This document shows, piece by piece, positions 6,179-34,920 of a stretch of 64,000 bases of DNA. Source of the stretch: Arbacia lixula (taxonomy: Eukaryota > Echinodermata > Echinoidea > Arbacioida > Arbaciidae); contig CAVLGW020000049.1 in NCBI GenBank assembly GCA_963669155.1, forward strand, positions 1 through 64,000. The letters run 5' to 3'. A program made the translations under genes and the position numbers. Below the pieces are notes generated by a model. That model did no database searches. It was not told where the DNA came from and saw nothing but the letters and a program-made list of their open reading frames with translations. The stretch's first letter is position 1, and the number at the start of each line of letters is the position of its first letter.

Positions 6179-6958
6179 GTATGTTTTACCACTCTATGTA
6201 TTGCACAGTTAAAACATTACATTGTACTAATTTAGTGTTGAAGATAAGGGTAGATATATGGAGAGAAATGAGCTTTGCAAGTTAAAGCTTTGCAAGTGCG
6301 TACACGTGTAGCTTCATGCATGCCTTGTATACACAGTCATAGCACTATTGTTTTAGGCAGGATCGCATCGTGTATGCGTATCGTGTGTACAGAATTGCGT
6401 GTAGAATACACAGAGCATGGGGGTACAGGCTGTGGTGGGTGTGCATTTTATACTATGCCCAAAGTTTGTATTACATGTACGTCCAAGCTATACTCGAATC
6501 CTAGTTTAGTAGTGAATATAAATAATGTGGATGGGAAGGTGACCATGAATGATACTCATTAAATTGTTCACAGTACAGTATTGTATTAATAATTATGTGA
6601 TTATAGAGGTTGTTACTCAATTGGGGCAGTTCAATTGGGATGCCATGTGTAGTGCTCATTCGGGTGCACAGGGTAGGAATTGTTTACACAGTGATGTTGG
6701 GGAAGCATACGTGTGTGTCTGGCATAGGCGGAGTGCAGCTTTAAACCTGGGGTAGTCTATGCTCTCAGACCATCCATCTTGTAGTTATTAATAGGATGAT
6801 ATAACTATTGTACGTTGAGAGGGATTCTGAATCTCAGATCTCATGGTATAGAAGTTGATCCTATAATAATGTGTTGTACAGGTATTCTTAACTAGAGTTA
6901 AGGAATTGGACCTAGGGTTTCGTTACTTATTAGGCATTGTTATTTCGATTTAAAAAAG
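6179..6958 (+). other. LTR intron 1 (780 nt)
   Basis: The donor is GAG|GTATGTTTTACC at 6179 and the acceptor is an A-run ending AAAG|G at 6958. The interval is missing, exactly at GT and AG, from the collage LTR, where exon 1 joins exon 2 at 21141/21142. Equivalent introns lie at 16147-16924 (B) and 32500-33282 (C). The acceptor has a weak, purine-rich end, so the spliced copy is the main evidence. Confidence 0.85.
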
Positions 6959-7039
6959 GTTTCTATCAAGGGAGACTGTGCGGTTTGCCGGTGTTGCCAA
7001 GCTGTGGGTGACACGGAGTCAGAACTCTGAGCAGTGGAG
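6959..7039 (+). other. LTR exon 2 (81 nt)
   Basis: This 81-nt block is flanked by an AG acceptor and a GTATGT donor. It is present as an 81-nt block (21142-21222) in the intron-less collage LTR. It is conserved in all LTRs; units B and C lack two bases. No open frame with an ATG was found in it. Confidence 0.83.
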
Positions 7040-7877
7040 GTATGTTAACATTTCATGTGAAATGTATTCAGGAAGAATGGTTGGGGAGATCGAATGTAAT
7101 GCTGACCATAGTGTAATGTTATAAAGTTGTGTAATGTCAGTTTATTTTGTGATTAACAACTGGATTGATATTGTAGTCTTATTATAATCTTATACATGAT
7201 TCAGATGAGTAATTTTGATGTGTTGAGATACGGGAATGCTTATAAGGACACAATTAGATTATAATGTTGACCCAACGTTGAGGATGTTATTAGTATCATG
7301 AATTGAGGGCAGATGGGTATTGTACAATCGCAGTATATCCCATATAGTTCGCATGTTGCATTTGTTTCGTTGTAGACATCAGGAACTTACGTGCGATAAT
7401 TGAGTAGGCATGTGTTAATACTTATATCATTTTGTTGTGAGTTCGATAAGGGAGCAGAAATATCATAACAGAGAAAAGCATGTTTGTTGTGCCCTGATAT
7501 TAAGAGTACTACATATATACTTCTGGAAGTGATGTAGATAAAGGAGAAGACTCAGAAAGATTATTCCAACTACTGATAAGGAGCAGGTATAATACTCAAT
7601 GTGAGTGTGAACTATGGCCACTGGTAAAGTTACATTAGCACTTCAATTATGATAATGTTGTACATTATTATATGTTGTTTGTTAAAGATGACAAATGCTC
7701 ATGTAGGCCCTGGAAAGCATTAGAGTATTTCTGTCTGATTATTGTGAATGATTAATATGCATAAACGTGCATGGATGGGTCGATGGTGGTTCAGTTCGGA
7801 CCGTTGATGTTTATTGTTAAACAAGGGGAATTATTTGAGTACTTTACAATCATTAGGATTTATTGTATTATATTTAG
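7040..7877 (+). other. LTR intron 2 (838 nt)
   Basis: The donor is GAG|GTATGTTAAC at 7040 and the acceptor is TATATTTAG|G at 7877. It is absent from the collage LTR, joined at 21222/21223. Equivalent introns are 17004-17842 (B) and 33362-34198 (C). The donor shares its GTATGT core with intron 1. Confidence 0.86.
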
Positions 7878-7942
7878 GTTCCAGCTGGAGGGGTAGCGTA
7901 CTGGTCTGGGCGTATAACCAGTGTGAGGAGGACCTCAGTTGG
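7878..7942 (+). other. LTR exon 3 (65 nt)
   Basis: This 65-nt block begins GTTCCAGCTGG and ends CAGTTGG. In the collage LTR it is preserved as 21223-21287 between exon 2 and exon 4. It is conserved in every LTR that covers it. Confidence 0.83.
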
Positions 7943-8486
7943 GTGAGTTGTGAGTCAGGATGGCCAAACAGATTCAACTGTTTATGTCTTATTATTGTTA
8001 TTGCTATTTATGGCCTTCATTAAGAAAAATTTGTTCTTACAGTCGAGTGATGTTCTGAATAATGTTTAAAGGGTTAAGGTGATTGATTAAAAATGCAAAT
8101 AGTAGGTAATAATAATGATGAGTTAATGTTTTGTAGTTGTATGTACTTAACCTCATGATTCATGACTTCAATAATTACAGATCATGTGATTGTATAGAAT
8201 TATGTTGACAAATAGGAAGTTGTTTCGGGTCACTCATTTACAGGATCAAAATGTTTAATGAGAGCTTTTCTAGTCTGGAGAAAGAGGCTGTGATGTGATG
8301 CCAAGTGATTGTTAAGGTTTGAATTTAGAAGATTAATATTCTCAGGCTTCATATTAATCTGGTTGGGTTTAGTTGAGTTAAGTATGACATGTTGCGCTTT
8401 TCAAAGTTAGAAAGGATGTCTAAGATTTGTATCATGATCATGTGTTGATTATGCTCTCTTCTTGTTGTCTTTTTCTGCTCTGGCAG
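7943..8486 (+). other. LTR intron 3 (544 nt)
   Basis: The donor is TTGG|GTGAGT at 7943. The acceptor has a strong pyrimidine tract (TCTTTTTCTGCTCTGGCAG) ending at 8486. It is absent from the collage LTR, joined at 21287/21288. Equivalent introns are 17908-18423 (B) and 34264-34779 (C). A-type LTRs carry about 27 extra T-rich bases here that the B and C LTRs lack. Confidence 0.88.
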
Positions 8487-8526
8487 AGGTTTTTTTTTTG
8501 TGCATACTTAGGTCGCAAGTGCCACC

Positions 8527-8532
8527 AATAAA
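8527..8532 (+). terminator. Polyadenylation signal AATAAA near the LTR 3' end
   Basis: AATAAA sits in LTR exon 4, about 95 nt before the LTR end, and is conserved in every copy. If it is used, R would run from an unknown start in or before exon 1 to just after this signal. U5 would then be under 80 nt and all three introns would lie inside R. Confidence 0.55.
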
Positions 8533-8583
8533 ACAACCCACCCCTTCAAATTCGAGTGTCAGCGTCTTCTATCTGTCGTGCCT

Positions 8584-8592
8584 CATCCTGAC
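8584..8592 (+). promoter_or_regulatory. U5 sequence complementary to the 5' end of the primer tRNA
   Basis: CATCCTGAC in U5 is complementary to GTCAGGATG. GTCAGGA is the acceptor-stem 5' strand that must pair with the tRNA 3' strand TCCTGAC seen in the captured tRNA copies; T8 is universal. It lies 35 nt upstream of the primer-binding site. A second contact between primer tRNA and U5 is known in other retroelements (primer activation signal of retroviruses, Ty1 boxes). Its function here is inferred. Confidence 0.4.
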
Positions 8593-8627
8593 AACCCCCC
8601 CCCCCCCCCCCTCTAGACTACGACAAA

Positions 8628-8646
8628 TGGTGTCAGGAGTGGGATT
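8628..8646 (+). promoter_or_regulatory. Primer-binding site (tRNA-Leu), unit B
   Basis: TGGTGTCAGGAGTGGGATT is complementary to the 3' end of a tRNA-Leu ending in CCA, as I recall animal tRNA-Leu(CAG). The leader then diverges (GGGTC) from the tRNA, which fixes the site at 19 nt. It starts two bases after the LTR. The same site is at 24893-24911 (C), 43686-43704 (D, minus), 46324-46342 (scrap, minus), 56310-56328 (E, minus) and 59307-59325 (F). Confidence 0.85.
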
Positions 8647-8951: not shown

Positions 8952-11900
8952 ATGGCAAGCCGTAGATCAAGCAGAAGGCAAGAGTCACCCCCAGCAGATA
9001 CACCGGAAGCAGGCTTAGCTGGTATGATCGATGCGTTGACGGGCGCATTCCAAAACATTTCAGCCTCTAGGGGATTACCCACACTGAAGTTGACGAAGTT
9101 CAGGGGCCTCCCGCAGAGATCCGGTGACCCAACTGTCATCGAATGGCTGGAAGAGTATGAAGATTACTGCAATTATTATAAGTTGAACCCACAAGAGAAG
9201 ACCCAGGTGCTCCTAACACATCTTGCAGACTGCGCCAAGGACGAGGTGCGATGTCACGACCCGGAAACAAGAGGAGATAGCAGCGCTTTGAAGGCTATCC
9301 TTATCTCGAGGTTCGGGAAGAAGGAAGGTGTGCAACCGTTGACCAGTCAACTCCATGCCAGAGTGCAGAAGCCAGGGGAATCACTTGCGGAGTTTAGCAG
9401 TTCTCTCCTTCGCCTGTATGATAGAATGGAAAGTGCGGCTTTGGTTGATGAGAAGGAGGCACTGGCCAAAATGAAGGACAGCACCTTGAAGGAGCGATTC
9501 ATCACAGGGGTCAAGGATCGACACTTCCAAAGAGAGCTCAGGCGGACTGCCCTATCGAACCCTAGGATGTCTTTTCTGGATTTCAGGAAGGAGGTGCTGG
9601 ATCTCTTCCAAGATGAAGATTTTACTCCCCCACGGGCCAACATTAGGGAAGTAGAAATCGAAGCACAGCGGGTTTCATCTCACCCCATAGAGGATCCCAC
9701 AGTGCAATCCATGAGGAGTGAGATATCAGAACTTCGGGACGCATTGAAAGAAGTGATGCAGGTAGTGAAGACGATGGAATCTGGCCCACCGAGGAGACGT
9801 CCAGGTACTGAGTTTTGCTATAATTGTCATCGACGGGGTCACTTTAAGAGAGAGTGCCCGTCGCCTCCCCTGTGTTATGGTTGCAAACAATTCGGACACA
9901 TCCGCAGAGACTGCCCATTGGAGAACAACCATCAGGCACCAGCTCAATCTCATGGCGATGCACCCAACATGGAGGAGCCCCAGCCACAAGGAAGGGTCAG
10001 AGCTGTCCGGCATCAAGAGGAAACCAATTTGACTCCTCAGCTTGTCTCGCAGAGTCCTAGGGCTGAAGTTCAGATAGCAGGGGTGAGCACCATCTGTGTA
10101 CTGGATACGGGGGCGGAGGCGAGCCTCATCCCTTCATCCTTCTACAATAAGCATCTGAAAGGTCACGTACCATTGGATGGGGACGGCGCTGGTGTGAGGG
10201 TCGTCGGCGTGACGGGGAGTATCCTTCCCATCATTGGGTACATTCGGGCGCCAGTTGTTGTTGACAGGAAGTCCACTGAAGTAGGGTTCCTCATCGTGGA
10301 AGACACTGCGAAGAAGGTTGAATGGAAGAAAGAGAGCTCGGTGATCTTAGGCTGCAATGCTCTCCGCATGCTGCTTCAAGGGGATCTCCACGGGAGTGAA
10401 GGCTGGAACTTTGTGGAGAAGACTCTTGAGCTACAACAGTCTACACAGGCTGCCAGTGCACTCCTTGTCATGAGTGATGACGAAATTATTCCTCCCCTAA
10501 CCGTACGTAGGATTGAATGCAGAATAGAGGACTCTGGTGCGCTGCATGGGATGGATGTACTGGTGGAGCCACTCGCCTCTCCGAAGGGTTATCTTGATAA
10601 AAACCACCTTGATGTTTATGATGGATGCATGCATGTCAGTGGCCCGAGACTTGAGGTAACTGTGGCCAATCGATCGTCAGAACTGAAGACGATCAACCAA
10701 GGCACTGTCGTAGCATCTGTAGTCGAGGTAGCTGATCGAGAAGAGATTTATGTTGTAGAGAGGGATGGTGTGATTGAGGTCAACATCGCAGATGTAACCG
10801 CTGAAGTAGGGGCAGGGGCTTTGTTGGGAGCAGAAGACGACACTAATGCTGAGGTGGATCAGATGAGGGAAGGACAGTACATCTGCCAAGACGGGAGTAG
10901 ACTGGAGTTACCAACTGGGGTGAATCTGGACCACCTTAAACCAGATCATGCAGATGTAATCGCCAGACTAGTATCTCAGCACTCGCAGGCATTTGCCCGA
11001 TCAGATATGGACTTGGGATGTTGCACAGTGATCCCCCATCAGGTTCGCACCCAGGACGGACCACCTATCCGGCTCCCCTATCGGCGCATTCCACCAAACC
11101 ACGTCCCGGAGATGAAGGCTCTGCTACAGGAGATGCTGGATAAAGGCATAATCAGACGATCCAACAGCCCTTTCGCAAGTCCAGTAGTGCCAATCCGCAA
11201 GAAAGATGGTTCTCTTAGAATATGCATCGACTACCGCCAGTTAAACAAGAGGATCATTCGAGATTCCTTCCCCCTTCCTCGAATTGACGAGACTCTTGAA
11301 GCATTGGGAGGGGCCAAGTTCTTCAGTTCCCTTGACCTTGCAAACGGCTATTTTCAAATAGCTATGGAGGATGGTTCCATCGAGAAGACAGCTTTCAGGG
11401 TCCCATGGGGCCTTTTCGAATTCTTGAGGATGCCTCAGGGGCTAGCCAACAGCCCTAGCACGTTTCAGAGAGTAATGGAACTGGTTCTGGGAGATCTGAA
11501 TCTAACCAATCTAGTCATCTACTTGGATGACATCCTTGTCTTTTCGAGGACCCTAGACGATCACGTCGCCAGACTTAATGTAGTGTTTGATCGACTGACA
11601 GAGTACGGGTTGAAGTTAAAGGGGAGGAAGTGTCAGTTTCTTCAAGAGGAGGTACATCATCTGGGGCACGTGGTGTCTGCATCAGGAATTTCGGTCGATC
11701 CCAAGAAGATTGAGACGATAAGGAGCTGGCCTACCCCTACATGTATCAAAGAGTTGCGCTCGTTTTTAGGCATGGCATCGTACTATCGCAGGTTTGTCGC
11801 AGGGTTCGCTGGGATCGCAGCCCCATTACATGCACTGGTAGGGAAGTGCCAACTTGGGTCCAAGAAGTCCAAGAGAAGACATGGTGATAGTGTACAGGAG

Positions 11901-14027
11901 TTTGTATGGTCGGAAGAGGCACAGCAGGCATTTGACAGTTTGAAGAGTGCGATGACGACTACCCCAGTCCTTGGATATCCTCAGTTCGACAAGCCTTTTG
12001 TAGTGGAAATAGATGCATCACTACAAGGGTTGGGAGCTTGTCTTTCTCAACGTGGCGATGACGGGAAACTACACCCTCTGGTGTATGCAAGTCGAGGACT
12101 GAGAGATGTGGAGAAGAACTACCCTGACTACTCCAGCTTTAAGCTAGAGCTTTTGGGTCTGAAGTGGGCCATCGCAGACAAGTTTCGAGAATACCTCATA
12201 GGGAGTACGACTGAAGTCCGGACCGATCATAATCCTTTGGCACACCTGGATACTGCGAAGTTAGGAGCTACAGAGCAACGATGGGTCGCACAGCTGGCAC
12301 CCTTTGATCTGCAGATCAAGTACCTACCCGGGAGACAGAACAGATGTGCAGATGCTCTAAGTAGGCGCCCAAATGAAGAGGAGGAAGCATGCCCGCCTAC
12401 CATAGAGGATGTGTTATGTTGTTCAGCAATGCCAGTGGAGGTGCATGCACAAGCGGGTAAACCACAACGACCAGCCAAGATGGTGGAGCCGAATACACAT
12501 GTATCTACTGTTCTCCCATCCTTTAGTCTACCACAGCTGTCGGAACTCCAACAGAAAGACGACAGTCTTGGCACGGTCTGGGAGTATTGGAGACAAGGGT
12601 GGAAGCCTGGAGATCCACTACCAGAGGAGGCATCGGTGAGAGGGTGGATGAGAGAGTGGAAGCACCTAGTGGAGAGTGATGGTATACTCTACCGGCGAGC
12701 GTTGGTGCAAGGTGAAATTTTGAAACAGTTACTTGTGCCAACCAAGATGAGGCAGACTATTCTAGAAACGGTTCATGATAAATGGGGGCATCAGGGCGTG
12801 ACAAGGACCTTGGGACTGCTGCAGCGAAGATGCTTCTGGCCGGGTCTCCATGCTGATGTTCGCCATTATATCAAGATGTGCTTCAACTGTACAGTAGCGA
12901 AAGCACCGACCCCAACCGTGAGGAATCCGATGCGCCACCTGCTTGCGTTCAGGCCATTGGAGATTTTGGCCATAGACTTCTTGAAGATGGATCGGGGACG
13001 AGGAGGATATGAGGATATCCTAGTACTAACCGATGTCTACAGCAAGTACGCCCAAGCGATCCCATGCAAAGATCAAAGTGCACGGACGGTAGCAAAGGTC
13101 CTCAGAGATGTGTGGTTTGTCCACTACGGGATACCCCTTCGAATCCACTCCGATCAGGGACGAGACTTCGAGAGTCATCTGATAAAGGAGGTCTGCGCTT
13201 TGTATGGTGTGAAGAAATCTCGTACCACCCCCTATCACCCGGAGGGGAATGGACAGGTAGAACGCTTTAATAGAACACTCTGTTGCCTGATTCGTTCCAT
13301 GGACCCAACTGACAGGAAGAACTGGCCGGAAATGATTGCCCATCTGGTATTCATCTACAACTCCACACCACATCGATCGACGGGTTATTCGCCATGTAGG
13401 CTGATGTATGGCAGGGAACCATGTCTCCCTATAGACCAGCTTCTCTCACGAGTGGAAAGAGAGTGGGACCAGGACTTCGTGAAATCGCAGGCTGCAGCCA
13501 TGACGAAAGTGAATGTCCTCGCGGAGCAGAACTTGAAGAAAAGAGCGGCCGAAGATAAACAGCGCCATGATCGTAGGGTCGGGCCGTCTAGAATGGAGGT
13601 CGGGCAACATGTGCTGTTAAGACAGACGGCATTCACCGAGAGACACAAACTTGCTGATAAATTCTTCAGGGACCCTTATGTCATCGTAGGAGTCAATGTG
13701 GATGGGGATGTTTGCCACATTCGACCAGTTCATGGAGGAGATATGAAAACAGTTAATAGAAGACTGTTGACATTGGACCCCAGAAGTGCAGATTGTCATA
13801 TCAGAATTGACACAGAATCCCAGCCTTCATCTGATAGTGAGGGAGACGGAGACGAATGGACCTCAAACGATGAGGCTAGAGATGGCGATTTAGGTGAGCC
13901 TTCGTGGTTCTCACTTGGTACCGATGAACATGAGCAAGAAAATGTAACAGTCCCTCGTCGGTCGAAGCGAGTGACCAGAGGGCAACATAGTAATCCTAAT
14001 CATCTCCCAAAATCAGCGACTCGTTGA
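8952..14027 (+). CDS. Gag-Pol polyprotein, 1,691 aa (unit B)
   Basis: Single continuous Gag-Pol frame of a Ty3/Gypsy element; it looks whole. Gag occupies about 1-330, with two CCHC zinc knuckles (C289-C292-H297-C302 and C308-C311-H316-C321). Protease has D385-T-G. RT spans about 690-900 with D795 and the YLDD pair D859-D860. RNase H begins about 1015 with D1021. Integrase has an N-terminal HHCC finger and a DD35E triad, D1342, D1401 and E1437. A PYVIVG-like C-terminal region and an acidic, serine-rich tail with a basic patch follow. No frameshift or stop separates gag from pol. The ATG at 8952 is the first in frame after the leader and is conserved in all copies. No chromodomain or env was seen, and I cannot assign the clade. 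Confidence 0.95.
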   Translation: MASRRSSRRQESPPADTPEAGLAGMIDALTGAFQNISASRGLPTLKLTKFRGLPQRSGDPTVIEWLEEYEDYCNYYKLNPQEKTQVLLTHLADCAKDEVRCHDPETRGDSSALKAILISRFGKKEGVQPLTSQLHARVQKPGESLAEFSSSLLRLYDRMESAALVDEKEALAKMKDSTLKERFITGVKDRHFQRELRRTALSNPRMSFLDFRKEVLDLFQDEDFTPPRANIREVEIEAQRVSSHPIEDPTVQSMRSEISELRDALKEVMQVVKTMESGPPRRRPGTEFCYNCHRRGHFKRECPSPPLCYGCKQFGHIRRDCPLENNHQAPAQSHGDAPNMEEPQPQGRVRAVRHQEETNLTPQLVSQSPRAEVQIAGVSTICVLDTGAEASLIPSSFYNKHLKGHVPLDGDGAGVRVVGVTGSILPIIGYIRAPVVVDRKSTEVGFLIVEDTAKKVEWKKESSVILGCNALRMLLQGDLHGSEGWNFVEKTLELQQSTQAASALLVMSDDEIIPPLTVRRIECRIEDSGALHGMDVLVEPLASPKGYLDKNHLDVYDGCMHVSGPRLEVTVANRSSELKTINQGTVVASVVEVADREEIYVVERDGVIEVNIADVTAEVGAGALLGAEDDTNAEVDQMREGQYICQDGSRLELPTGVNLDHLKPDHADVIARLVSQHSQAFARSDMDLGCCTVIPHQVRTQDGPPIRLPYRRIPPNHVPEMKALLQEMLDKGIIRRSNSPFASPVVPIRKKDGSLRICIDYRQLNKRIIRDSFPLPRIDETLEALGGAKFFSSLDLANGYFQIAMEDGSIEKTAFRVPWGLFEFLRMPQGLANSPSTFQRVMELVLGDLNLTNLVIYLDDILVFSRTLDDHVARLNVVFDRLTEYGLKLKGRKCQFLQEEVHHLGHVVSASGISVDPKKIETIRSWPTPTCIKELRSFLGMASYYRRFVAGFAGIAAPLHALVGKCQLGSKKSKRRHGDSVQEFVWSEEAQQAFDSLKSAMTTTPVLGYPQFDKPFVVEIDASLQGLGACLSQRGDDGKLHPLVYASRGLRDVEKNYPDYSSFKLELLGLKWAIADKFREYLIGSTTEVRTDHNPLAHLDTAKLGATEQRWVAQLAPFDLQIKYLPGRQNRCADALSRRPNEEEEACPPTIEDVLCCSAMPVEVHAQAGKPQRPAKMVEPNTHVSTVLPSFSLPQLSELQQKDDSLGTVWEYWRQGWKPGDPLPEEASVRGWMREWKHLVESDGILYRRALVQGEILKQLLVPTKMRQTILETVHDKWGHQGVTRTLGLLQRRCFWPGLHADVRHYIKMCFNCTVAKAPTPTVRNPMRHLLAFRPLEILAIDFLKMDRGRGGYEDILVLTDVYSKYAQAIPCKDQSARTVAKVLRDVWFVHYGIPLRIHSDQGRDFESHLIKEVCALYGVKKSRTTPYHPEGNGQVERFNRTLCCLIRSMDPTDRKNWPEMIAHLVFIYNSTPHRSTGYSPCRLMYGREPCLPIDQLLSRVEREWDQDFVKSQAAAMTKVNVLAEQNLKKRAAEDKQRHDRRVGPSRMEVGQHVLLRQTAFTERHKLADKFFRDPYVIVGVNVDGDVCHIRPVHGGDMKTVNRRLLTLDPRSADCHIRIDTESQPSSDSEGDGDEWTSNDEARDGDLGEPSWFSLGTDEHEQENVTVPRRSKRVTRGQHSNPNHLPKSATR

Positions 14028-14518: not shown

Positions 14519-17500
14519 TGTGGCAAGTAGGCGGAGAGAAAAGCTTTGTTTGTCTTTCAGGATATTACTAAGCGTGCATCATTCAGTTAGACTTTTATGG
14601 CTAGCTAGATGAAGATGTTATTCTTTGCTTTCTAAGAGTAATACAGGTATCTCTTTTTTTCTTTTACGCCGTAAACCTCGAGGAGGCTTGTCAGAAGTAA
14701 CCGTCTGAATATCACTGTACAAACCAAGACTTATAAATGTTTTTAGAGACTTTTTCACAGCTTTTAAAAGAAAGACTGCAAACTGAATTTCTTTAGGATG
14801 TGTGGATCTCCCAAGCTATGTGGAAGGAAATGCACATCTTTGGAACTGAGAAGGGTGCTGATCGAAACATGCACCTGGGCAATTTTGAAGTGACCAACTT
14901 TAAGTTTCCAAACACATTGTAGGTAGAGGAAGGAGAAAGGAAGCTGAGTTGAGCATTATTCCTGTGACTTTGGTTTCTGGATGACGCTGAATTGTCATTT
15001 ATTTTGATAATTACCCATATGGTGAAGATATGGATATCTTTTTGATTTGTATATTGAATTGGGTTAGCATGAAACAAGGCTTGAATTAGAAAGTATGAAA
15101 GTATGAAAGTATGATTAGAAAGTATGATTGTCTTGAGTAGTAATGATTAGCCGATTGTCCTTCACATTGTCATGTCATTCAAACATTTCTTCGCAACTAG
15201 TAAAGACCCGTGGTCTACTGAGTTATTTCCTTTTACCCCCCAACGACTTTCTCTTCGTGACCTTAATAAGGTGACTGATGGTAAACAGAGAGACTCTTGA
15301 TGTCCTCTCCAAGGAGGGGGTCTGTTATCACGGCCTTGGTGGGGCTTGCCCAAAAGAGTGGGGGTCTGTTTAATGACCTTGTGGGCTTGACAGATTGATA
15401 ACTTTGTTTTGCCATAAATGTGCTGAATGGGTAATATCCACATAACAATATTTTTGGATATTCAGATAGCTATACATCTGTACTAAGTAAGATAGAGGTG
15501 TACCCAGTAGTAGAGATGTTAATGTCTTAGTACCCTTGAAGGCCAGTGGTGCAAGGCTTGATGTATAGGTGTTAAGAAACCATGTTGTATGAGTGAGGTC
15601 AGTCATACCATTTGTCAGGATGGATTGTAGGAGAGTGAATTTTGAGAATTCTCCCTTTTAAGTCTGTGGAATGCAGGCCAGGGAGTCAGGTCGGTACATG
15701 GAATGTTTATGGAAAGTGAACCTCATCACGTAGCATTGATGCTAGGAAAAATATAGTTCCTGGTTAAATGTTTCATTGTTGTGAACATGATGATAAGTAT
15801 TATTGTGGTGATAGTACTTAAGATGTTGTCATAAGTGTGTCTCTAAATATCAAACAAAACAAAAAAAACAAAACAAAACAAAACAAAACATAAGTGTGTC
15901 TCTAAATATCAAACAAAACAAAAACAAAACAAAACAAAACAAAACAAAACAAAACAAAAAAAAGGAGGATGAATATTTGCACTCAGAGTGGGTGATTGGG
16001 TCATCCTCTGGGGCAAGAATCTTAAGAGAGTACGTGCAAAATACGCAATTTGGCATTGCTGGGTGAAAGACACTGAGAGTGTAGTACAAGCAATCGTTCG
16101 AGGAGCTGGAAGAGTTAACAAGAGCTTGGTTGGGCAGGCTTAGGAGGTATGTTTTACCACTCTATGTATTGCACAGTTAAAACATTACATTGTACTAATT
16201 TAGTGTTGAAGATAAGGGTAGATATATGGAGAGAAATGAGCTTTGCAAGTTAAAGCTTTGCAAGTGCGTACACGTGCAGCTTCATGCATGCCTTGTATAC
16301 ACAGTCATGGCACTATTGTTTTAGGCAGGATCGCATCGTGTATGCGTATCGTGTGTACGGAATTGTGTGTAGAATACACAGAGCATGGGGGTACAAGCTG
16401 TGGTGGGTGTGCATTTTATACTATGCCCAAAGTTTGTATTACATGTACGTCCAAGCTATACTCGAATCCTAGTTTAGTAGTGAATATAATGTGGATGGGA
16501 AGGTGACCATGAATGATTCTCATTAAATTGTTCACAGTACAGTATTGTATTGATAATTATGTGATTATAGAGGTTGTTACTCAGTTGGGGCAGTTCAATT
16601 GGGATGCCATGTGTAGTGCTCATTCGGGTGCTCAGGGTAGGAATTGTTTACACAGTGATGTTGGGGGCGCATACGTGTGTGTCTGGCATAGGCGGAGTGC
16701 AGCTTTAAACCTGGGGTAGTCTATGCTCTCAGACCATCCATCTTGTAGTTATTAATAGGATGATATAACTATTGTACGTTAAGAGGGATTCTGAATCTCA
16801 GATCTCATGGTATAGAAGTTGATCTTATAATAATGTGTTGTACAAGTATTCTTAACTAGAGTTGAGGAATTGGACCTAGGGTTTCGTTACTTATTAGGCA
16901 TTGTTATTTCGATTTAAAAAAAAGGTTTCTATCGAGGGAGACTGCGGTTTGCCGGTGTTGCCAAGCTGTGGGTGACACGGAGTCAGAACTCTGAGCAGTG
17001 GAGGTATGTTAACATTTCATGTGAAATGTATTCCGGAAGAATGGTTGGGGAGATCGAATGTAATGCTGACCATAGTGTAATGTTATAAAGTTGTGTAATG
17101 TCAGTTTATTTTGTGATTAACAACTGGATTGATATTGTAGTCTTATTATAATCTTATACATGATTCAGATGAGTAATTTTGATGTGTTGAGATACGGGAA
17201 TGCTTATAAGGACACAATTAGATTATAATGTTGACCCAACGTTGAGGATGTTATTAGTATCATGAATTGAGGGCAGATGGGTATTGTACAATCGCAGTAT
17301 ATCCCATATAGTTCGCATGTTGCATTTGTTTCGTTATAGACATCAGGAACTTACGTGCGATAATTGAGTAGGCATGTGTTAATACTTATATCATTTTGTT
17401 GTGAGTTCGATAAGGGAGCAGAAATATCATAACAGAGAAAAGCATGTTTGTTGTGCCCTGATATTAAGAGTACTACATATTATACTTCTGGAAGTGATGT

Positions 17501-18567
17501 AGATAAAGGAGAAGACTCAGAAAGATTTTTCCAACTACTGATAAGGAGGTGGTATAATACTCAATGTGAGTGTGAACTATAGCCACTGGTAAAGTTACAT
17601 TAGCACTTCAATTATGATAATGTTGTACATTATTATATGTTGTTTGTTAAAGATGACAAATGCTCATGTAGGCCCTGGAAAGCATTAGAGTATTTCTGTC
17701 TGATTATTGTGAATGACTAATATGCATAAACGTGCATGGATGGGTCGATGGTGGTTCAGTTCGGACCGTTGATGTTTATTGTTAAACAAGGGGAATTATT
17801 TGAGTACTTTACAATCATTAGGATTTATTGTATTATATTTAGGTTCCAGCTGGAGGGGTAGCGTACTGGTCTGGGCGTATAACCAGTGTGAGGAGGACCT
17901 CAGTTGGGTGAGTTGTGAGTCAGGATGGCCAAACAGATTCAACTGTTTATGGCCTTCATAAGAAAAATTTGTTCTTACAGTCGAGTGATGTTCTGAATAA
18001 TGTTTAAAGGGTTAAGGTGATTGATTAAAAATGCAAATAGTAGGTAATAATAATGATGAGTTAATGTTTTGTAGTTGTATGTACTAACCTCATGATTCAT
18101 GACTTCAATAATTACAGATCATGTGATTATATAGAATTATGTTGACAAATAGGAAGTTGTTTCGGGTCACTCATTTACAGGATCAAAATGTTTAATGAGA
18201 GTTTTTCTAGTCTGGAGAAAGAGGCTGTGATGTGATGCCAAGTGATTGTTAAGGTTTGAATTTAGAAGATTAATATTCTCAGGCTTCATATTAATCTGGT
18301 TGGGTTTAGTTGAGTTAAGTATGACATGTTGCGCTTTTCAAAGTTAGAAAGGATGTCTAAGATTTGTATCATGATCATGTGTTGATTATGCTCTCTTCTT
18401 GTTGTCTTTTTCTGCTCTGGCAGAGGTTTTTTTTTTTTTGTGCATACTTAGGTCGCAAGTGCCACCAATAAAACAACCCACCCCTTCAAATTCGAGTGTC
18501 AGCGTCTTCTATCTGTCGTGCCTCATCCTGACAACCCCCCCCCCCCCCCCCCTTCTAGACTACGACA
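14519..18567 (+). repeat. Complete 3' LTR of unit B
   Basis: 4,049 nt from TGTGGC to CTACGACA, with all three introns (16147-16924, 17004-17842, 17908-18423). It shares the shorter intron 3 with the LTR of C but lacks that LTR's 142-nt insert, so it is an intermediate subtype. A TATAAA-like motif near 14731 is present in B and C; A, D and E have TGTAAA there. It is followed by two bases and a long tRNA complement instead of a leader. Confidence 0.82.
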
Positions 18568-18569
18568 AA

Positions 18570-18612: not shown

Positions 18613-19229
18613 AGAAGAAAAGAAAAAAAAAAAAAGGTTTCTATCGAGGGAGACTGTGCGGTTTGCCGGTGTTGCCAAGCTGTGGGTGACACGGAGTCAG
18701 AACTCTGAGCAGTGGAGGTATGTTAACATTTCATGTGAAATGTATTCAGGAAGAATGGTTGGGGAGATCGAATGTAATGCTGACCATAGTGTAATGTTAT
18801 AAAGTTGTGTAATGTCAGTTTATTTCTAGTCTGGAGAAAGAGGCTGTGATGTGATGCCAAGTGATTGTTAAGGTTTGAATTTAGAAGATTAATATTCTCA
18901 GGCTTCATATTAATCTGGTTGGGTGAGTTGTGAGTCAGGATGGCCAAACAGATTCAACTGTTTATGGCCTTCATAAGAAAAATTTGTTCTTACAGTCGAG
19001 TGATGTTCTGAATAATGTTTAAAGGGTTAAGGTGATTGATTAAAAATGCAAATAGTAGGTAATAATAATGATGAGTTAATGTTTTGTAGTTGTATGTACT
19101 AACCTCATGATTCATGACTTCAATAATTACAGATCATGTGATTATATAGAATTATGTTGACAAATAGGAAGTTGTTTCGGGTCACTCATTTACAGGATCA
19201 AAATGTTTAATGAGAGTTTTTCTAGTCTG
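18611..19229 (+). repeat. Collage of shuffled leader and LTR pieces
   Basis: In order: the A-rich leader scrap of D/F type (18611 to about 18633); LTR exon 2 and the start of intron 2 (to 18825); part of intron 3 (18823-18924); the exon 3 end and intron 3 again (18918-19229). Joints share A-run sequence, TTT (18823-18825), GTTGGGT (18918-18924) and TG. All pieces are in the plus orientation but out of order. No gene is present. Confidence 0.85.
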
Positions 19230-19424
19230 AAGAAAGGCTATGAAAATGTGCTTGGGAGTGCATGTATTGTTTCTCAGGTTTTCTTCCAAATATTTCTTAA
19301 ACTTACTTTTGTGTTGAATTTCCTCCAATGAGTATTATGTTGCACTTTATGTTTCCAATCAATTCAGCAGTGTAGGGGAATATCTCTCAAACACCATTAG
19401 TGTGAGCAGAAGGAGAGAGAGAGA
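19230..19424 (+). other. 3' UTR fragment and purine tract ahead of the processed LTR
   Basis: The last part of a 3' UTR, beginning AAGAAAGGCTATG, with the purine tract at 19408-19424, leads straight into an LTR. It shows that the processed LTR is a 3' LTR attached to its own 3' UTR. Confidence 0.75.
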
Positions 19425-20513
19425 TGTGGCAAGTAGGCGGAGAGAAAAGCTTTGTTTGTCTTTCAGGATATTACTAAGCGTGCATCATTCAGTTAGACTT
19501 TTATGGCTAGCTAGATGAAGATGTTATTCTTTGCTTTCTAAGAGTAATACAGGTATCTCTTTTTTTCTTTTACGCCGTAAACCTCGAGGAGGCTTGTCAG
19601 AAGTAACCGTCTGAATATCACTGTACAAACCAAGACTTATAAATGTTTTTAGAGACTTTTTCACAGCTTTTAAAAGAAAGACTGCAAACTGAATTTCTTT
19701 AGGATGTGTGGATCTCCCAAGCTATGTGGAAGGAAATGCACATCTTTGGAACTGAGAAGGGTGCTGATCGAAACATGCACCTGGGCAATTTTGAAGTGAC
19801 CAATTTTAAGTTTCCAAATACAATGTAGGTAGAGGAAGGAGAAAGTAAGCTGAGTTGAGCATTATTCCTGTGACTTTGGTTTCTGGATGACGCTGAATTG
19901 TCATTTATTTTGATAATTACCCATATGGTGAAGATATGGATATCTTTTTGATTTGTATATTGAATTGGGTTAGCATGAAACAAGGTTTGAATTAGAAAGT
20001 ATGAAAGTATGAAAGTATGATTAGAAAGTATGATTAGAAAGTATGATTAGAAAGTATGATTGTCTTGAGTAGTAATGATTAGCCGATTGTCCTTCACATT
20101 GTCATGTCATTCAAACATTTCTTCGCAACTAGTAAAGACCCGTGGTCTACTGAGTTGTTTCCTTTTACCCCCCAACGACTTTCTCTTCGTGACCTTAATA
20201 AGGTGACTGATGGTAAACAGAGAGACTCTTGATGTCCTCTCCAAGGAGGGGGTCTGTTTAATGACCTTGTGGGCTTGACAGATTGATAACTTTGTTTTGC
20301 CATAAATGTGCTGAATGGGTAATATCCACATAACAATATTTTTGGATATTCAGATAGCTATACATCTGTACTAAGTAAGATAGAGGTGTACCCAGTAGTA
20401 GAGATGTTAATGTCTTAGTACCCATGAAGGCCAGTGGTGCAAGGCTTGATGTATAGGTGTTAAGAAACCATGTTGTATGAGTGAGGTCAGTCATACCATT
20501 TGTCAGGATGGAT

Positions 20514-20733
20514 TGTAGGAGAGTGAATTTTGAGAATTCTCCCTTTTAAGTCAAAACAAAAGGTGGACAGCGAAAAGTAGTGGCCGACCGCTTTTGAAAC
20601 TTCCATTTTGAGTAAGAATCAAACTTACATGTACACCTCTTTTGCTGTTTGCGCCGCCGAAATTCATCATGGACCGCAACTGCTAATAGAGTAATGTAGG
20701 AGAGTGAATTTTGAGAATTCTCCCTTTTAAGTC
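20514..20733 (+). repeat. 39-nt duplication flanking a 142-nt foreign insert (collage LTR)
   Basis: TGTAGGAGAGTGAATTTTGA and the 19 bases after it are repeated at 20514-20552 and 20695-20733. Between them, 20553-20694 holds sequence found in no other part of the family except LTR C. The direct repeat is too long for an LTR-element target duplication and has the look of a template-switch or repair duplication. Confidence 0.85.
20553..20694 (-). other. Foreign 142-nt insert, possible host exon fragment
   Basis: The sequence is less AT-rich than the LTR around it. On the minus strand an ATG at 20670 opens 39 codons (MMNFGGANSKRG...) to a stop at the insert edge, and a GTAAGT donor-like motif follows 14 codons in. 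That resembles a first coding exon with its donor, but the open stretch is short and could be chance. The product is not recognised. The same insert is at 31911-32052. Confidence 0.35.
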
Positions 20734-21287
20734 TGTGGAATGCAGGTCAGGGAGTCAGGTCGGTACATGGAATGTTTATGGAAAGTGAACCTCATCACGT
20801 AGCATTGATGCTAGGAAAAATATAGTTCCTGGTTAAGATGTTGTCATAAGTGTGTCTCTAAATATCAAACAAAACAAAAAAAAAACAAAACAAAACAAAA
20901 CAAAACATAAGTGTGTCTCTAAATATCAAACAAAACAAAACAAAACAAAACAAAACAAAACAAAACAAAAAAAAGGAGGATGAATATTTGCACTCAGAGT
21001 GGGTGATTGGGTCATCCTCTGGGGCAAGAATCTTAAGAGAGTACGTGCAAGATACGCAATTTGGCATTGCTGGGTGAAAGACACTGAGAGTGTAGTACAA
21101 GCAATCGTTCGAGGAGCTGGATGGTTGGGCAGGCTTAGGAGGTTTCTATCAAGGGAGACTGTGCGGTTTGCCGGTGTTGCCAAGCTGTGGGTGACACGGA
21201 GTCAGAACTCTGAGCAGTGGAGGTTCCAGCTGGAGGGGTAGCGTACTGGTCTGGGCGTATAACCAGTGTGAGGAGGACCTCAGTTGG

Positions 21288-21590
21288 AGGTTTTTTTTTT
21301 GTGCATACTTAGGTCGCAAGTGCCACCAATAAAACAACCCACCCCTTCAAATTCGAGTGTCAGCGTCTTCTATCTGTCGTGCCTCATCCTGACAACCCCC
21401 CCCCCCCTCTAGACTACGACAAATGGGTTCGAATCCCACTCCTGACACCATTTGTCGTAGTCTAGAGGGGGGGGGGGGGGGGTTGTCAGGATGAGGCACG
21501 ACAGATAGAAGACGCTGACACTCGAATTTGAAGGGGTGGGTTGTTTTATTGGTGGCACTTGCGACCTAAGTATGCACAAAAAAAAAACCT
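21288..21590. repeat. Inverted repeat of LTR exon 4 around a tRNA spacer
   Basis: Exon 4 of the processed LTR (21288-21423) and the end of inverted LTR G (21451 to about 21590) are inverted copies of each other, separated by the 27-nt tRNA piece. Symmetry stops at 21287, where the left arm enters exon 3 and the right arm continues into intron 3. C-tracts differ (12 against 16). Confidence 0.85.
21424..21450 (+). other. Captured 27-nt 3' end of tRNA-Leu at an inverted LTR-LTR joint
   Basis: TGGGTTCGAATCCCACTCCT followed by GACACCA is the 3' end of the primer tRNA in sense orientation: the T-arm except its first base, then the acceptor strand and CCA. It separates two LTR ends that point at each other (ACGACAAA and TTTGTCGT). 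It exceeds the 19-nt binding site by eight bases. Read on the minus strand it extends LTR G by a tRNA complement. Confidence 0.85.
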
Positions 21591-24500
21591 CTGCCAGAGC
21601 AGAAAAAGACAACAAGAAGAGAGCATAATCAACACATGATCATGATACAAATCTTAGACATCCTTTCTAACTTTGAAAAGCGCAACATGTCATACTTAAC
21701 TCAACTAAACCCAACCAGATTAATATGAAGCCTGAGAATATTAATCTTCTAAATTCAAACCTTAACAATCACTTGGCATCACATCACAGCCTCTTTCTCC
21801 AGACTAGAAAAGCTCTCATTAAACATTTTGATCCTGTAAATGAGTGACCCGAAACAACTTCCTATTTGTCAACATAATTCTATACAATCACATGATCTGT
21901 AATTATTGAAGTCATGAATCATGAGGTTAAGTACATACAACTACAAAACATTAACTCATCATTATTATTACCTACTATTTGCATTTTTAATCAATCACCT
22001 TAACCCTTTAAACATTATTCAGAACATCACTCGACTGTAAGAACAAATTTTTCTTAATGAAGGCCATAAATAGCAATAACAATAATAAGACATAAACAGT
22101 TGAATCTGTTTGGCCATCCTGACTCACAACTCACCCAACTGAGGTCCTCCTCACACTGGTTATACGCCCAGACCAGTACGCTACCCCTCCAGCTGGAACC
22201 TAAATATAATACAATAAATCCTAATGATTGTAAAGTACTCAAATAATTCCCCTTGTTTAACAATAAACATCAACGGTCCGAACTGAACCACCATCGACCC
22301 ATCCATGCACGTTTATGCATATTAATCATTCACAATAATCAGACAGAAATACTCTAATGCTTTCCAGGGCCTACATGAGCATTTGTCATCTTTAACAAAC
22401 AACATATAATAATGTACAACATTATCATAATTGAAGTGCTAATGTAACTTTACCAGTGGCCATAGTTCACACTCACATTGAGTATTATACCTGCTCCTTA
22501 TCAGTAGTTGGAATAATCTTTCTGAGTCTTCTCCTTTATCTACATCACTTCCAGAAGTATATATGTAGTACTCTTAATATCAGGGCACAACAAACATGCT
22601 TTTCTCTGTTATGATATTTCTGCTCCCTTATCGAACTCACAACAAAATGATATAAGTATTAACACATGCCTACTCAATTATCGCACGTAAGTTCCTGATG
22701 TCTACAACGAAACAAATGCAACATGCGAACTATATGGGATATACTGCGATTGTACAATACCCATCTGCCCTCAATTCATGATACTAATAACATCCTCAAC
22801 GTTGGGTCAACATTATAATCTAATTGTGTCCTTATAAGCATTCCCGTATCTCAACACATCAAAATTACTCATCTGAATCATGTATAAGATTATAATAAGA
22901 CTACAATATCAATCCAGTTGTTAATCACAAAATAAACTGACATTACACAACTTTATAACATTACACTATGGTCAGCATTACATTCGATCTCCCCAACCAT
23001 TCTTCCTGAATACATTTCACATGAAATGTTAACATACCTCCACTGCTCAGAGTTCTGACTCCGTGTCACCCACAGCTTGGCAACACCGGCAAACCGCACA
23101 GTCTCCCTTGATAGAAACCTTTTTTTAATCGAAATAACAATGCCTAATAAGTAACGAAACCCTAGGTCCAATTCCTTAACTCTAGTTAAGAATACCTGTA
23201 CAACACATTATTATAGGATCAACTTCTATACCATGAGATCTGAGATTCAGAATCCCTCTCAACGTACAATAGTTATATCATCCTATTAATAACTACAAGA
23301 TGGATGGTCTGAGAGCATAGACTACCCCAGGTTTAAAGCTGCACTCCGCCTATGCCAGACACACACGTATGCTTCCCCAACATCACTGTGTAAACAATTC
23401 CTACCCTGTGCACCCGAATGAGCACTACACATGGCATCCCAATTGAACTGCCCCAATTGAGTAACAACCTCTATAATCACATAATTATTAATACAATACT
23501 GTACTGTGAACAATTTAATGAGAATCATTCATGGTCACCTTCCCATCCACATTATTTATATTCACTACTAAACTAGGATTCGAGTATAGCTTGGACGTAC
23601 ATGTAATACAAACTTTGGGCATAGTATAAAATGCACACCCACCACAGCCTGTACCCCCATGCTCTGTGTATTCTACACGCAATTCTGTACACACGATACG
23701 CATACACGATGCGATCCTGCCTAAAACAATAGTGCTATGACTGTGTATACAAGGCATGCATGAAGCTACACGTGTACGCACTTGCAAAGCTTTAACTTGC
23801 AAAGCTCATTTCTCTCCATATATCTACCCTTATCTTCAACACTAAATTAGTACAATGTAATGTTTTAACTGTGCAATACATAGAGTGGTAAAACATACCT
23901 CCTAAGCCTGCCCAACCAAGCTCTTGTTAACTCTTCCAGCTCCTCGAACGATTGCTTGTACTACACTCTCAGTGTCTTTCACCCAGCAATGCCAAATTGC
24001 GTATCTTGCACGTACTCTCTTAAGATTCTTGCCCCAGAGGATGACCCAATCACCCACTCTGAGTGCAAATATTCATCCTCCTTTTTTTTTGTTTTGTTTT
24101 GTTTTGTTTTGTTTTGTTTTGTTTTGTTTGATATTTAGAGACACACTTATGTTTTGTTTTGTTTTGTTTTGTTTTTTTTGTTTTGTTTGATATTTAGAGA
24201 CACACTTATGACAACATCTTAAGTACTATCACCACAATAATACTTATCATCATGTTCACAACAATGAAACATTTAACCAGGAACTATATTTTTCCTAGCA
24301 TCAATGCTACGTGATGAGGTTCACTTTCCATAAACATTCCATGTACCGACCTGACTCCCTGACCTGCATTCCACAGACTTAAAGGGAGAATTCTCAAAAT
24401 TCACTCTCCTACAATCCATCCTGACAAATGGTATGACTGACCTCACTCATACAACATGGTTTCTTAACACCTATACATCAAGCCTTGCACCACTGGCCTT

Positions 24501-30782: not shown

Positions 30783-33700
30783 TGTGGCAAGTAGGCGGAG
30801 AGAAAAGCTTTGTTTGTCTTTCAGGATATTACTAAGCGTGCATCATTCAGTTAGACTTTTATGGCTAGCTAGATGAAGATGTTATTCTTTGCTTTCTAAG
30901 AGTAATACAGGTATCTCTTTTTTTCTTTTACGCCGTAAACCTCGAGGAGGCTTGTCAGAAGTAACCGTCTGAATATCACTGTACAAACCAAGACTTATAA
31001 ATGTTTTTAGAGACTTTTTCACAGCTTTTAAAAGAAAGACTGCAAACTGAATTTCTTTAGGATGTGTGGATCTCCCAAGCTATGTGGAAGGAAATGCACA
31101 TCTTTGGAACTGAGAAGGGTGCTGATCGAAACATGCACCTGGGCAATTTTGAAGTGACCAATTTTAAGTTTCCAAATACAATGTAGGTAGAGGAAGGAGA
31201 AAGTAAGCTGAGTTGAGCATTATTCCTGTGACTTTGGTTTCTGGATGACGCTGAATTGTCATTTATTTTGATAATTACCCATATGGTGAAGATATGGATA
31301 TCTTTTTGATTTGTATATTGAATTGGGTTAGCATGAAACAAGGTTTGAATTAGAAAGTATGAAAGTATGAAAGTATGATTAGAAAGTATGATTAGAAAGT
31401 ATGATTAGAAAGTATGATTGTCTTGAGTAGTAATGATTAGCCGATTGTCCTTCACATTGTCATGTCATTCAAACATTTCTTCGCAACTAGTAAAGACCCG
31501 TGGTCTACTGAGTTGTTTCCTTTTACCCCCCAACGACTTTCTCTTCGTGACCTTAATAAGGTGACTGATGGTAAATAGAGAGACTCTTGATGTCCTCTCC
31601 AAGGAGGGGGTCTGTTTAATGACCTTGTGGGCTTGACAGATTGATAACTTTGTTTTGCCATAAATGTGCTGAATGGGTAATATCCACATAACAATATTTT
31701 TGGATATTCAGATAGCTATACATCTGTACTAAGTAAGATAGAGGTGTACCCAGTAGTAGAGATGTTAATGTCTTAGTACCCATGAAGGCCAGTGGTGCAA
31801 GGCTTGATGTATAGGTGTTAAGAAACCATGTTGTATGAGTGAGGTCAGTCATACCATTTGTCAGGATGGATTGTAGGAGAGTGAATTTTGAGAATTCTCC
31901 CTTTTAAGTCAAAACAAAAGGTGGACAGCGAAAAGTAGTGGCCGACCGCTTTTGAAACTTCCATTTTGAGTAAGAATCAAACTTACATGTACACCTCTTT
32001 TGCTGTTTGCGCCGCCGAAATTCATCATGGACCGCAACTGCTAATAGAGTAATGTAGGAGAGTGAATTTTGAGAATTCTCCCTTTTAAGTCTGTGGAATG
32101 CAGGTCAGGGAGTCAGGTCGGTACATGGAATGTTTATGGAAAGTGAACCTCATCACGTAGCATTGATGCTAGGAAAAATATAGTTCCTGGTTAAGATGTT
32201 GTCATAAGTGTGTCTCTAAATATCAAACAAAACAAAAAAAAAACAAAACAAAACAAAACAAAACATAAGTGTGTCTCTAAATATCAAACAAAACAAAACA
32301 AAACAAAACAAAACAAAACAAAACAAAAAAAAGGAGGATGAATATTTGCACTCAGAGTGGGTGATTGGGTCATCCTCTGGGGCAAGAATCTTAAGAGAGT
32401 ACGTGCAAGATACGCAATTTGGCATTGCTGGGTGAAAGACACTGAGAGTGTAGTACAAGCAATCGTTCGAGGAGCTGGATGGTTGGGCAGGCTTAGGAGG
32501 TATGTTTTACCACTCTATGTATTGCACAGTTAAAAACATTACATTGTACTAATTTAGTGTTGAAGATAAGGGTAGATATATGGAGAGAAATGAGCTTTGC
32601 AAGTTAAAGCTTTGCAAGTGCGTACACGTGCAGCTTCATGCATGCCTTGTATACACAGTCATAGCACTATTGTTTTAGGCAGGATCGCATCGTGTATGCG
32701 TATCGTGTGTACAGAATTGCGTGTAGAATACACAGAGCATGGGGGTACAGGCTGTGGTGGGTGTGCATTTTATACTATGCCCAAAGTTTGTATTACATGT
32801 ACGTCCAAGCTATACTCGAATCCTAGTTTAGTAGTGAATATAATGTGGATGGGAAGGTGACCATGAATGATTCTCATTAAATTGTTCACAGTACAGTATT
32901 GTATTAATAATTATGTGATTATAGAGGTTGTTACTCAATTGGGGCAGTTCAATTGGGATGCCATGTGTAGTGCTCATTCGGGTGCACAGGGTAGGAATTG
33001 TTTACACAGTGATGTTGGGGGAGCATACGTGTGTGTCTGGCATAGGCGGAGTGCAGCTTTAAACCTGGGGTAGTCTATGCTCTCAGACCATCCATCTTGT
33101 AGTTATTAATAGGATGATATAACTATTGTACGTTAAGAGGGATTCTGAATCTCAGATCTCATGGTATAGAAGTTGATCCTATAGTATAATAATGTGTTGT
33201 CAGGTATTCTTAACTAAAGTTAAGGAATTGGACCTAGGGTTTCGTTACTTATTAGGCATTGTTATTTTGATTTAAAAAAAAGGTTTCTATCAAGGGAGAC
33301 TGCGGTTTGCCGGTGTTGCCAAGCTGTGGGTGACACGGAGTCAGAACTCTGAGCAGTGGAGGTATGTTAACATTTCATGTGAAATGTATTCAGGAAGAGT
33401 GGTTGGGGAGATCGAATGTAATGCTGACCATAGTGTAATGTTATAAAGTTGTATAATGTCAGTTTATTTTGTGATTAACAACTGATTGATATTGTAGTCT
33501 TATTATAATCTTATACATGATTCAGATGAGCAATTTTGATGTGTTGAGATACGGGAATGCTTATAAGGACACAATTAGATTATAATGTTGACCCAACGTT
33601 GAGGATGTTATTAGTATCATGAATTGAGGGCAGATGGGTATTGTACAATCGCAGTATATCCCATATAGTTCGCATGTTGCATTTGTTTCGTTGTAGACAT

Positions 33701-34920
33701 CAGGAACTTACGTGCGATAATTGAGTAGGCATGTGTTAATACTTATATCATTTTGTTGTGAGTTCGATAAGGGAGCAGAAATATCATAACAGAGAAAAGC
33801 ATGTTTGTTGTGCCCTGATATTAAGAGTACTACATATATACTTCTGGAAGTGATGTAGATAAAGGAGAAGACTCAGAAAGATTATTCCAACTACTGATAA
33901 GGAGCAGGTATAATACTCAATGTGAGTGTGAACTATAGCTACTGGTAAAGTTACATTAGCACTTCAATTATGATAATGTTGTACATTATTATATGTTGTT
34001 TGTTAAAGATGACGAATGCTCATGTAGGCTCTGGAAAGCATTAGAGTATTTCTGTCTGATTATTGTGAATGATTAATATGCATAAACGTGCATGGATGGG
34101 TCGATGGTGGTTCAGTTCGGACCGTTGATGTTTATTGTTAAACAAGGGGAATTATTTGAGTACTTTACAATCATTAGGATTTATTGTATTATATTTAGGT
34201 TCCAGCTGGAGGGCTGGCGTACTGGTCTGGGCGTATAACCAGTGTGAGGAGGACCTCAGTTGGGTGAGTTGTGAGTCAGGATGGCCAAACAGATTCAACT
34301 GTTTATGGCCTTCATAAGAAAAATTTGTTCTTACAGTCGAGTGATGTTCTGAATAATGTTTAAAGGGTTAAGGTGATTGATTAAAAATGCAAATAGTAGG
34401 TAATAATAATGATGAGTTAATGTTTTGTAGTTGTATGTACTAACCTCATGATTCATGACTTCAATAATTACAGATCATGTGATTATATAGAATTATGTTG
34501 ACAAATAGGAAGTTGTTTCGGGTCACTCATTTACAGGATCAAAATGTTTAATGAGAGTTTTTCTAGTCTGGAGAAAGAGGCTGTGATGTGATGCCAAGTG
34601 ATTGTTAAGGTTTGAATTTAGAAGATTAATATTCTCAGGCTTCATATTAATCTGGTTGGGTTTAGTTGAGTTAAGTATGACATGTTGCGCTTTTCAAAGT
34701 TAGAAAGGATGTCTAAGATTTGTATCATGATCATGTGTTGATTATGCTCTCTTCTTGTTGTCTTTTTCTGCTCTGGCAGAGGTTTTTTTTTTTTGTGCAT
34801 ACTTAGGTCGCAAGTGCCACCAATAAAACAACCCACCCCTTCAAATTCGAGTGTCAGCGTCTTCTATCTGTCGTGCCTCATCCTGACAACCCCCCCCCCC
34901 CCCCCTTCTAGACTACGACA
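30783..34920 (+). repeat. Complete 3' LTR of unit C (with 142-nt insert)
   Basis: 4,138 nt with introns at 32500-33282, 33362-34198 and 34264-34779. It has the 39-nt duplication (31872-31910 and 32053-32091) around the foreign insert, lacks about 48 nt upstream of it that A has, and lacks about 50 nt between the insert and the CAAAA array. These features are shared with the processed LTR, which must derive from the same subtype. Confidence 0.85.
31911..32052 (-). other. Foreign 142-nt insert, second copy (LTR C)
   Basis: Same sequence and same flanking 39-nt duplication as 20553-20694. The insert was therefore already part of the LTR subtype before the processed copy was made. Seen on the minus strand it has the same short ATG-opened stretch. 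Confidence 0.5.

Follow-up and report, generated by a model that had tools for sequence, protein, structure and literature searches.

Evidence for three spliceosomal introns inside the LTR of a Ty3/gypsy retrotransposon of Arbacia lixula and for reverse transcription of its spliced RNA

In a stretch of 64,000 nucleotides from Arbacia lixula (the window), one long terminal repeat (LTR) of a retrotransposon lacks three intervals that are present in the other LTR copies. The locus raises the question of whether these intervals are spliceosomal introns lying inside an LTR, and whether the LTR without them (called S below) was copied from a spliced RNA. The window is the first 64,000 bases of contig C71 (76,479 bp), which belongs to an assembly of 607 Mb and 590 contigs. 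LTRs containing the three intervals are referred to as intron-bearing.

The element and the limits of its LTR

Copies of a single LTR retrotransposon, arranged head-to-tail and inverted, make up all of the 64 kb except for short stretches where they join and a 142-nt insertion that occurs twice. Rearranged element copies fill the first 64.7 kb of C71, and the element part stops at C71:64705, where an LTR has its TG end. The joins of this concatemer (window positions 1-64000 together with C71:64001-64705, copies in both orientations) resemble those of end-joined cDNA: there are blocks beginning a few bases before the primer binding site (24885, 59301), palindromic LTR ends and short microhomologies. 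Outside the window contig, at C17:9087000-9112200 (L012-L014), three intron-bearing LTRs lie about 9.97 kb apart, apparently as a tandem element with shared LTRs.

A gag-pol ORF of 1691 amino acids without an internal stop is located at 8952..14027 on the forward strand and covers the CCHC motif, reverse transcriptase (RT), RNase H and integrase. Further open gag-pol ORFs of 1691 amino acids are found at 25216-30291 and, on the reverse strand, at 38299-43374 and 50930-56005. Consecutive pieces of the ORF matched a zinc knuckle, RVT_1, RT_RNaseH, Integrase_H2C2 and rve, which is the Ty3/gypsy order. The gag piece was 45% identical to a protein of Antedon mediterranea, its only match among those listed. 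For the RT piece, the best of the matches listed was a protein of Apostichopus japonicus (58%), and fish and amphibian proteins were listed as well; the comparison of the RT piece with viral contigs gave no relative, and one pol piece upstream of RT had no match among solved structures. Two bases past the LTR lies the primer binding site (PBS), TGGTGTCAGGAGTGGGATT (8628..8646, forward strand), which we take to be similar to tRNA-Leu; no tRNA gene was found within the window. Judged by its sequence, the element is a Ty3/gypsy LTR retrotransposon, as it has RT and RNase H upstream of integrase, TG..CA LTRs with a target duplication and a tRNA-type PBS.

The LTR is preceded by CCATTTGTCAGGATGGAT, which is not a clear purine tract. 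CCATTTGTC (5645-5653), shortly upstream of the LTR, repeats the U5/PBS border GACAAATGG (8622-8630) in reverse complement, and a clear purine tract was not seen at this place. The window junction at 59301 falls inside the match.

The LTR extends from TGTAGGAG to CTACGACA, that is, from TG to CA, and is flanked by 4-bp target duplications. Its start, TGTAGGAGAGTG, lies at 5664 in copy A and at 20514 in S, and its end at 8625 and 21421, respectively. Host DNA abuts TGTAGGAG directly in 12 of the 28 loci L009-L036, L030 and L031 sharing one flank. Equal 4-bp flanks were found for the single LTRs L017, L018, L019 and L031 and for the pairs L022/L023, L014/L012, L030/L029, L026/L025 and L020/L021; the flanks of L024 are unequal, and the remaining loci are without one of the two flanks or ends. 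The preliminary description had S span 19425-21421, which is wrong: the host junctions and target duplications place the start at 20514, and 19425 was rejected. The host junctions also make 5664 an LTR end, and its interpretation as the start of R, drawn from a 39-nt duplication and truncated ends, was likewise rejected.

Copy A (5664..8625, forward strand; TG..CA, 2962 bp) was delimited by the host/element junctions and 4-bp target duplications of the chromosomal copies. All its parts lie on the forward strand. U3 and exon 1 (5664..6178) are followed by intron 1 (6179..6958; 780 nt, GTATGT..AAG), exon 2 (6959..7039; 81 nt), intron 2 (7040..7877; 838 nt, GTATGT..TAG), exon 3 (7878..7942; 65 nt), intron 3 (7943..8486; 544 nt, GTGAGT..CAG, with a pyrimidine tract) and exon 4 together with U5 (8487..8625). 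AATAAA occurs once in the LTR, in this last part (8527-8532), and the splice donors of the LTR lie upstream of this poly(A) signal. The introns thus amount to 2162 nt, or 73% of the LTR, leaving 800 nt without them. Their strand is that of gag-pol. The GC content is 33-39% in the introns and 51-59% in exons 2-4 (exon 4 taken with U5). Intron-bearing LTRs in the window also include copy B (15626..18567, forward strand), copy C (21453..24413, reverse strand), which is inverted and adjoins S, and copy D (31872..34920, forward strand), which carries the same 181-nt insertion as S.

The joins of the intron-free LTR

S occupies positions 20514..21421 on the forward strand, and its length of 908 nt is explained by the 181-nt insertion at its start, as in copy D. 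This insertion is made up of a 39-nt duplication and 142 nt. In the subfamily to which 20514-20694 and 31872-32052 belong, the LTR thus has its own 5' end duplicated (39 nt) together with 142 nt of foreign sequence; the end of the insertion also occurs in copies on C5, C16, C21 and C12. Directly upstream of S lies the 3' internal non-coding region (19228..20513, forward strand), and positions 19228-21143 are 99.95% identical, gapless, to 30586-32501.

The three intervals of 780, 838 and 544 nt that had been described as missing from S and present in the other copies are indeed so distributed. Their exons are joined in S at 21141..21142 (exons 1 and 2), 21222..21223 (exons 2 and 3) and 21287..21288 (exons 3 and 4), all on the forward strand, and the exon ends assigned to copy A (6178/6959, 7039/7878 and 7942/8487) are right. 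The three gaps can be placed in 5, 5 and 2 equivalent ways, and in each case only one placement gives GT..AG (GTATGT, GTATGT and GTGAGT as donors). Among the other length differences of >=12 nt in 36 intron-bearing copies, which served as a control, 0 of 35 can be written as GT..AG; these do not represent 35 independent events, since many are run-length or simple-repeat variants or near-duplicates.

The statement that S equals another LTR of the window outside the gaps does not hold. It differs from copy A by single bases, by the 181-nt insertion and by the absence of 44, 54 and 16 nt, and none of these four larger differences can be written as GT..AG. A much closer partner was found on C5. 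When the exons were compared by BLAST pieces, S matched the intron-bearing LTR L020 at 630/630, 85/85 and 67/67 positions, and exon 4 aligned over 136 columns with 0 mismatches and 2 gaps. In a comparison with 28 chromosomal loci and two copies from the window, L020, free of exon substitutions, was the best partner of S, so S corresponds to an LTR of the C5 type from which precisely the three introns are missing. L020 and L021, the LTR pair of the C5 element, differ at 1 of 3066 sites; the leader side of this element is rearranged. An origin of S as a recombinant between a D-type U3 and A-type exons was rejected, because the C5 LTR accounts for every exon of S.

Between S and the inverted LTR, 26 nt at 21425..21450 on the forward strand read as primer tRNA. 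S therefore ends in U5, the first PBS bases and tRNA-like sequence, which points to a minus strand primed by tRNA as the source of its U5.

Longer tRNA-like copies of the PBS region occur at two junctions of the window. Sequence of this kind, copied past the PBS, extends from 18570 to about 18617 (about 45 nt), over 21425-21450 (26 nt) and, in L020, over about 590-625 (about 35 nt), as if plus-strand synthesis had entered the tRNA and the product had remained untrimmed; it is thus not confined to the window but occurs in a chromosomal copy on C5 as well. The Rfam search of 18500-21600 returned 13 matches, 0 of them at the gathering score: 12 fell on the hairpin of the inverted-LTR junction and 1, a weak one, at 18573-18610.

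A second intron-free element and the state of the splice sites

If spliced RNA is reverse transcribed, both LTRs of the resulting element are predicted to be intron-free. Further LTRs without the same three intervals, whose existence the preliminary description had suggested, were found in a separate and older element on the 39.9-Mb contig C2, and there both LTRs lack all three. In a genome search with the 219-nt spliced exons (the best 40 of 112 candidates were scored), three matches were contiguous over the full query, namely S and the two C2 LTRs, the latter at 87 and 85%. A query derived from C2 (43 matches from the best 40 of 144 candidates) gave only the same three across all joins. As they come from lists of best candidates, these genome counts are lower bounds; among the matches listed, no LTR besides S and the C2 LTRs was without all three introns.

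Genome-wide searches with join patterns covered joins 1 and 2. The join 2 pattern, with 3 mismatches allowed, hit S, both C2 LTRs and one further place, against 3 hits for the reversed control. The join 1 pattern, with 2 mismatches allowed, hit S and three unrelated places with no other match to the element, against 1 hit for its reversed control; it misses C2, where join 1 has undergone later changes.

The C2 element reads, from 26322130 downwards, as a spliced 5' LTR, PBS, leader, an insertion, gag-pol pieces (about 91-92%), an insertion with missing parts, and a spliced 3' LTR. The 3' LTR ends in CTACGACA and was split by a later insertion that appears LINE-like by eye. The two LTRs are 0.067 apart (K2P, 718 sites), and the flanks of the element, GATA and AATA, are identical except at one of their four bases.

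The gaps could be thought of as DNA deletions or as an artefact of assembly, and S does sit in a 76-kb contig composed largely of rearranged element copies. This explanation is extremely improbable: GT..AG is obtained in 3 of 3 gaps against 0 of 35 other length differences, and the same gaps are found again on a long contig, in two diverged LTRs of which one was interrupted by a later insertion.

In L020 (C5) and L058 (C12), exon 4 adjoins an inverted leader copy at GTTGGAGGTTT, and the match to the C2-derived query over the exon 3/exon 4 join extends for about 18 nt. It is possible that these joins are traces of an RNA without intron 3, or of snap-back. The two loci were excluded from the count of intron-free LTRs, since such an RNA is not their necessary source.

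The splice sites were aligned in 36 intron-bearing copies (27 chromosomal and 9 from the window, L028 excluded). The agreement of the gaps with GT-AG extends to these aligned copies, every covered splice site being GT or AG. Donor 1 is GT in 33/33 copies (GTATGT in 24, GTACGT in 9) and acceptor 1 AG in 36/36; donor 2 is GTATGT in 36/36 and acceptor 2 AG in 34/34; donor 3 is GTGAGT in 34/34 and acceptor 3 CAG in 32/32. Taken alone, this uniformity is weak evidence because the aligned copies are mostly young. Within the five intron-bearing LTR pairs, 0, 0, 0, 1 and 3 sites differ, which indicates recent insertion of intron-bearing elements.

Greater depth is provided by L028 on C10, an old copy that carries all three introns. 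Relative to copy A, the last 50 nt of its introns are identical at 140/145 positions and exons 2-4 at 244/260, against 1498/1689 in the intron middles (Fisher p versus the middles, 0.0018 for the ends and 0.012 for the exons); this test compares only two copies, and 50 nt was picked as the cut after inspection of the alignment. The first 30 nt of the introns agree at 25/30 (intron 1), 27/30 (intron 2) and 29/30 (intron 3), and exon 1 at 50/59, so that exon 1 and the starts of introns 1 and 2 are not clearly better kept than the intron middles.

L028 bears on another explanation, according to which the LTR had no introns at first and acquired them later, so that C2 would preserve the original state and S alone would be a processed copy. 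The C2 element is about 10% distant from the young copies in its exons, and an older state is compatible with this distance, the copies being unrooted. However, L028 is also old and has all three introns; the introns show no match to one another, which means that no single insertion unit was copied three times; and S shows that exact loss occurs. Late gain of the introns is accordingly considered very unlikely.

The earlier proposal of a transcribed and spliced LTR whose spliced RNA was reverse transcribed is thus strengthened by the three exact GT..AG losses, the exon match with C5, the recurrence in C2 and the state of the splice sites; no other reading was found for the exact losses in S, the same losses in C2 and the splice-site state together. 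It is very likely, on the evidence of the copies themselves, that this is a recently active Ty3/gypsy element whose LTR has three sense-strand spliceosomal introns between four exons, and that its intron-free LTRs arose from reverse-transcribed spliced RNA. We infer that this happened at least twice, once for the S locus and once for C2.

Placement of the introns and relation to known elements

The introns probably lie inside R. Transcription would start in the LTR upstream of intron 1, which would place the introns in R and hence at the 5' as well as the 3' end of the genomic RNA. Most of the RNA that is reverse transcribed would escape splicing, like retroviral genomic RNA, and the family would in this way retain its introns. 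Occasionally a spliced RNA would be used: the tRNA-primed minus strand would copy the spliced leader, and strand transfer followed by integration of the cDNA would render both LTRs intron-free. Expression of gag-pol may use the spliced RNA. A simple scan of 5600-6178 gave no hexamer resembling a TATA box.

The introns might instead belong to U3, with transcription starting downstream of intron 3, or be 3' UTR introns of genomic or read-through RNA only. In that case splicing would be confined to the 3' end of the RNA, and a 3' splice site lying upstream of AATAAA would help in defining both the last exon and the site of polyadenylation. Such a role fits intron 3, which ends 40 nt upstream of the sole AATAAA of the LTR and whose last 50 nt are the best conserved of the three introns between L028 and copy A (49/50); the transcription start was not located, which leaves room for this arrangement. 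The U5 of S, which is accompanied by the first PBS bases and was thus copied at the 5' end of the RNA, is compatible with both models. Recombination among the copies, for which the four-gamete test gives a minimum of 24 intervals in the LTR and the sequence before it, is so frequent that the point of strand transfer cannot be placed and mosaic copies are uninformative on R. A location in U3 appears rather unlikely, and R is preferred.

The element shares with Ty3/gypsy elements (Metaviridae) the Gag CCHC motif, RT, RNase H, integrase, TG..CA ends, the 4-bp duplication and a tRNA-type PBS, and its closest named proteins are from echinoderms. It differs from other Ty3/gypsy elements in that its LTR contains three complete introns, which take up most of its length. 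To our knowledge, no member of Ty3/gypsy with complete introns in the LTR has been described. A published equivalent, with introns inside the LTR of an LTR retrotransposon, was not found among the open-access full texts listed, PMC4558846 and PMC3601003 among them.

Three other systems offer partial likenesses. Regulated splicing of retrotransposon RNA is a feature of plant Ogre and of other LTR elements, the introns being internal to the element. The likeness to Ogre lies in this regulated splicing; the introns considered here are in the LTR, whereas those of Ogre are not. In foamy viruses, the LTR holds a splice donor alone, the acceptors being downstream, and the introns leave the LTR. Their main donor is located within R, upstream of the poly(A) signal (PMC3694450). 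In contrast, the donors and acceptors of all three introns are inside the LTR in the element from A. lixula. The Penelope element of D. virilis reportedly has an intron in its 5' UTR, within an LTR-like repeat. Penelope-like elements can retain introns, and the rotifer study proposes a mode of replication that permits intron retention (PMC3846280). Their polymerase and replication differ from those of the present element, which has true LTRs, a PBS and integrase and, unlike Penelope-like elements, should lose its introns whenever spliced RNA is used.

The spliced LTR has no ATG-started sense ORF of more than 21 amino acids and one GTG-started frame of 80 amino acids, and the LTR exons fold no better than shuffled sequences. 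A function of the spliced form is not visible, as there is neither an ATG ORF of more than 21 amino acids nor a special fold. It may be speculated, and only tentatively, that the introns are kept in R under selection. The spliced RNA, whose R would be 2.2 kb shorter, would serve as messenger, while mainly unspliced RNA would be reverse transcribed; the introns would mark genomic RNA or, should they belong to U3, direct polyadenylation to the 3' LTR instead of the 5' LTR. Elements without introns would be failures of this sorting that are still able to integrate.

It is unexpected that an element which passes through RNA should mostly retain its introns, as it does across copies differing by about 6% in exons 2-4. 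Since reverse transcription of spliced RNA erases introns, the element must largely separate splicing from genome formation. The family would offer a test case for the choice of LTR elements between the 5' and the 3' poly(A) site, and its intron-bearing and intron-free LTRs would constitute a natural and countable record of how often spliced RNA serves as the genome.
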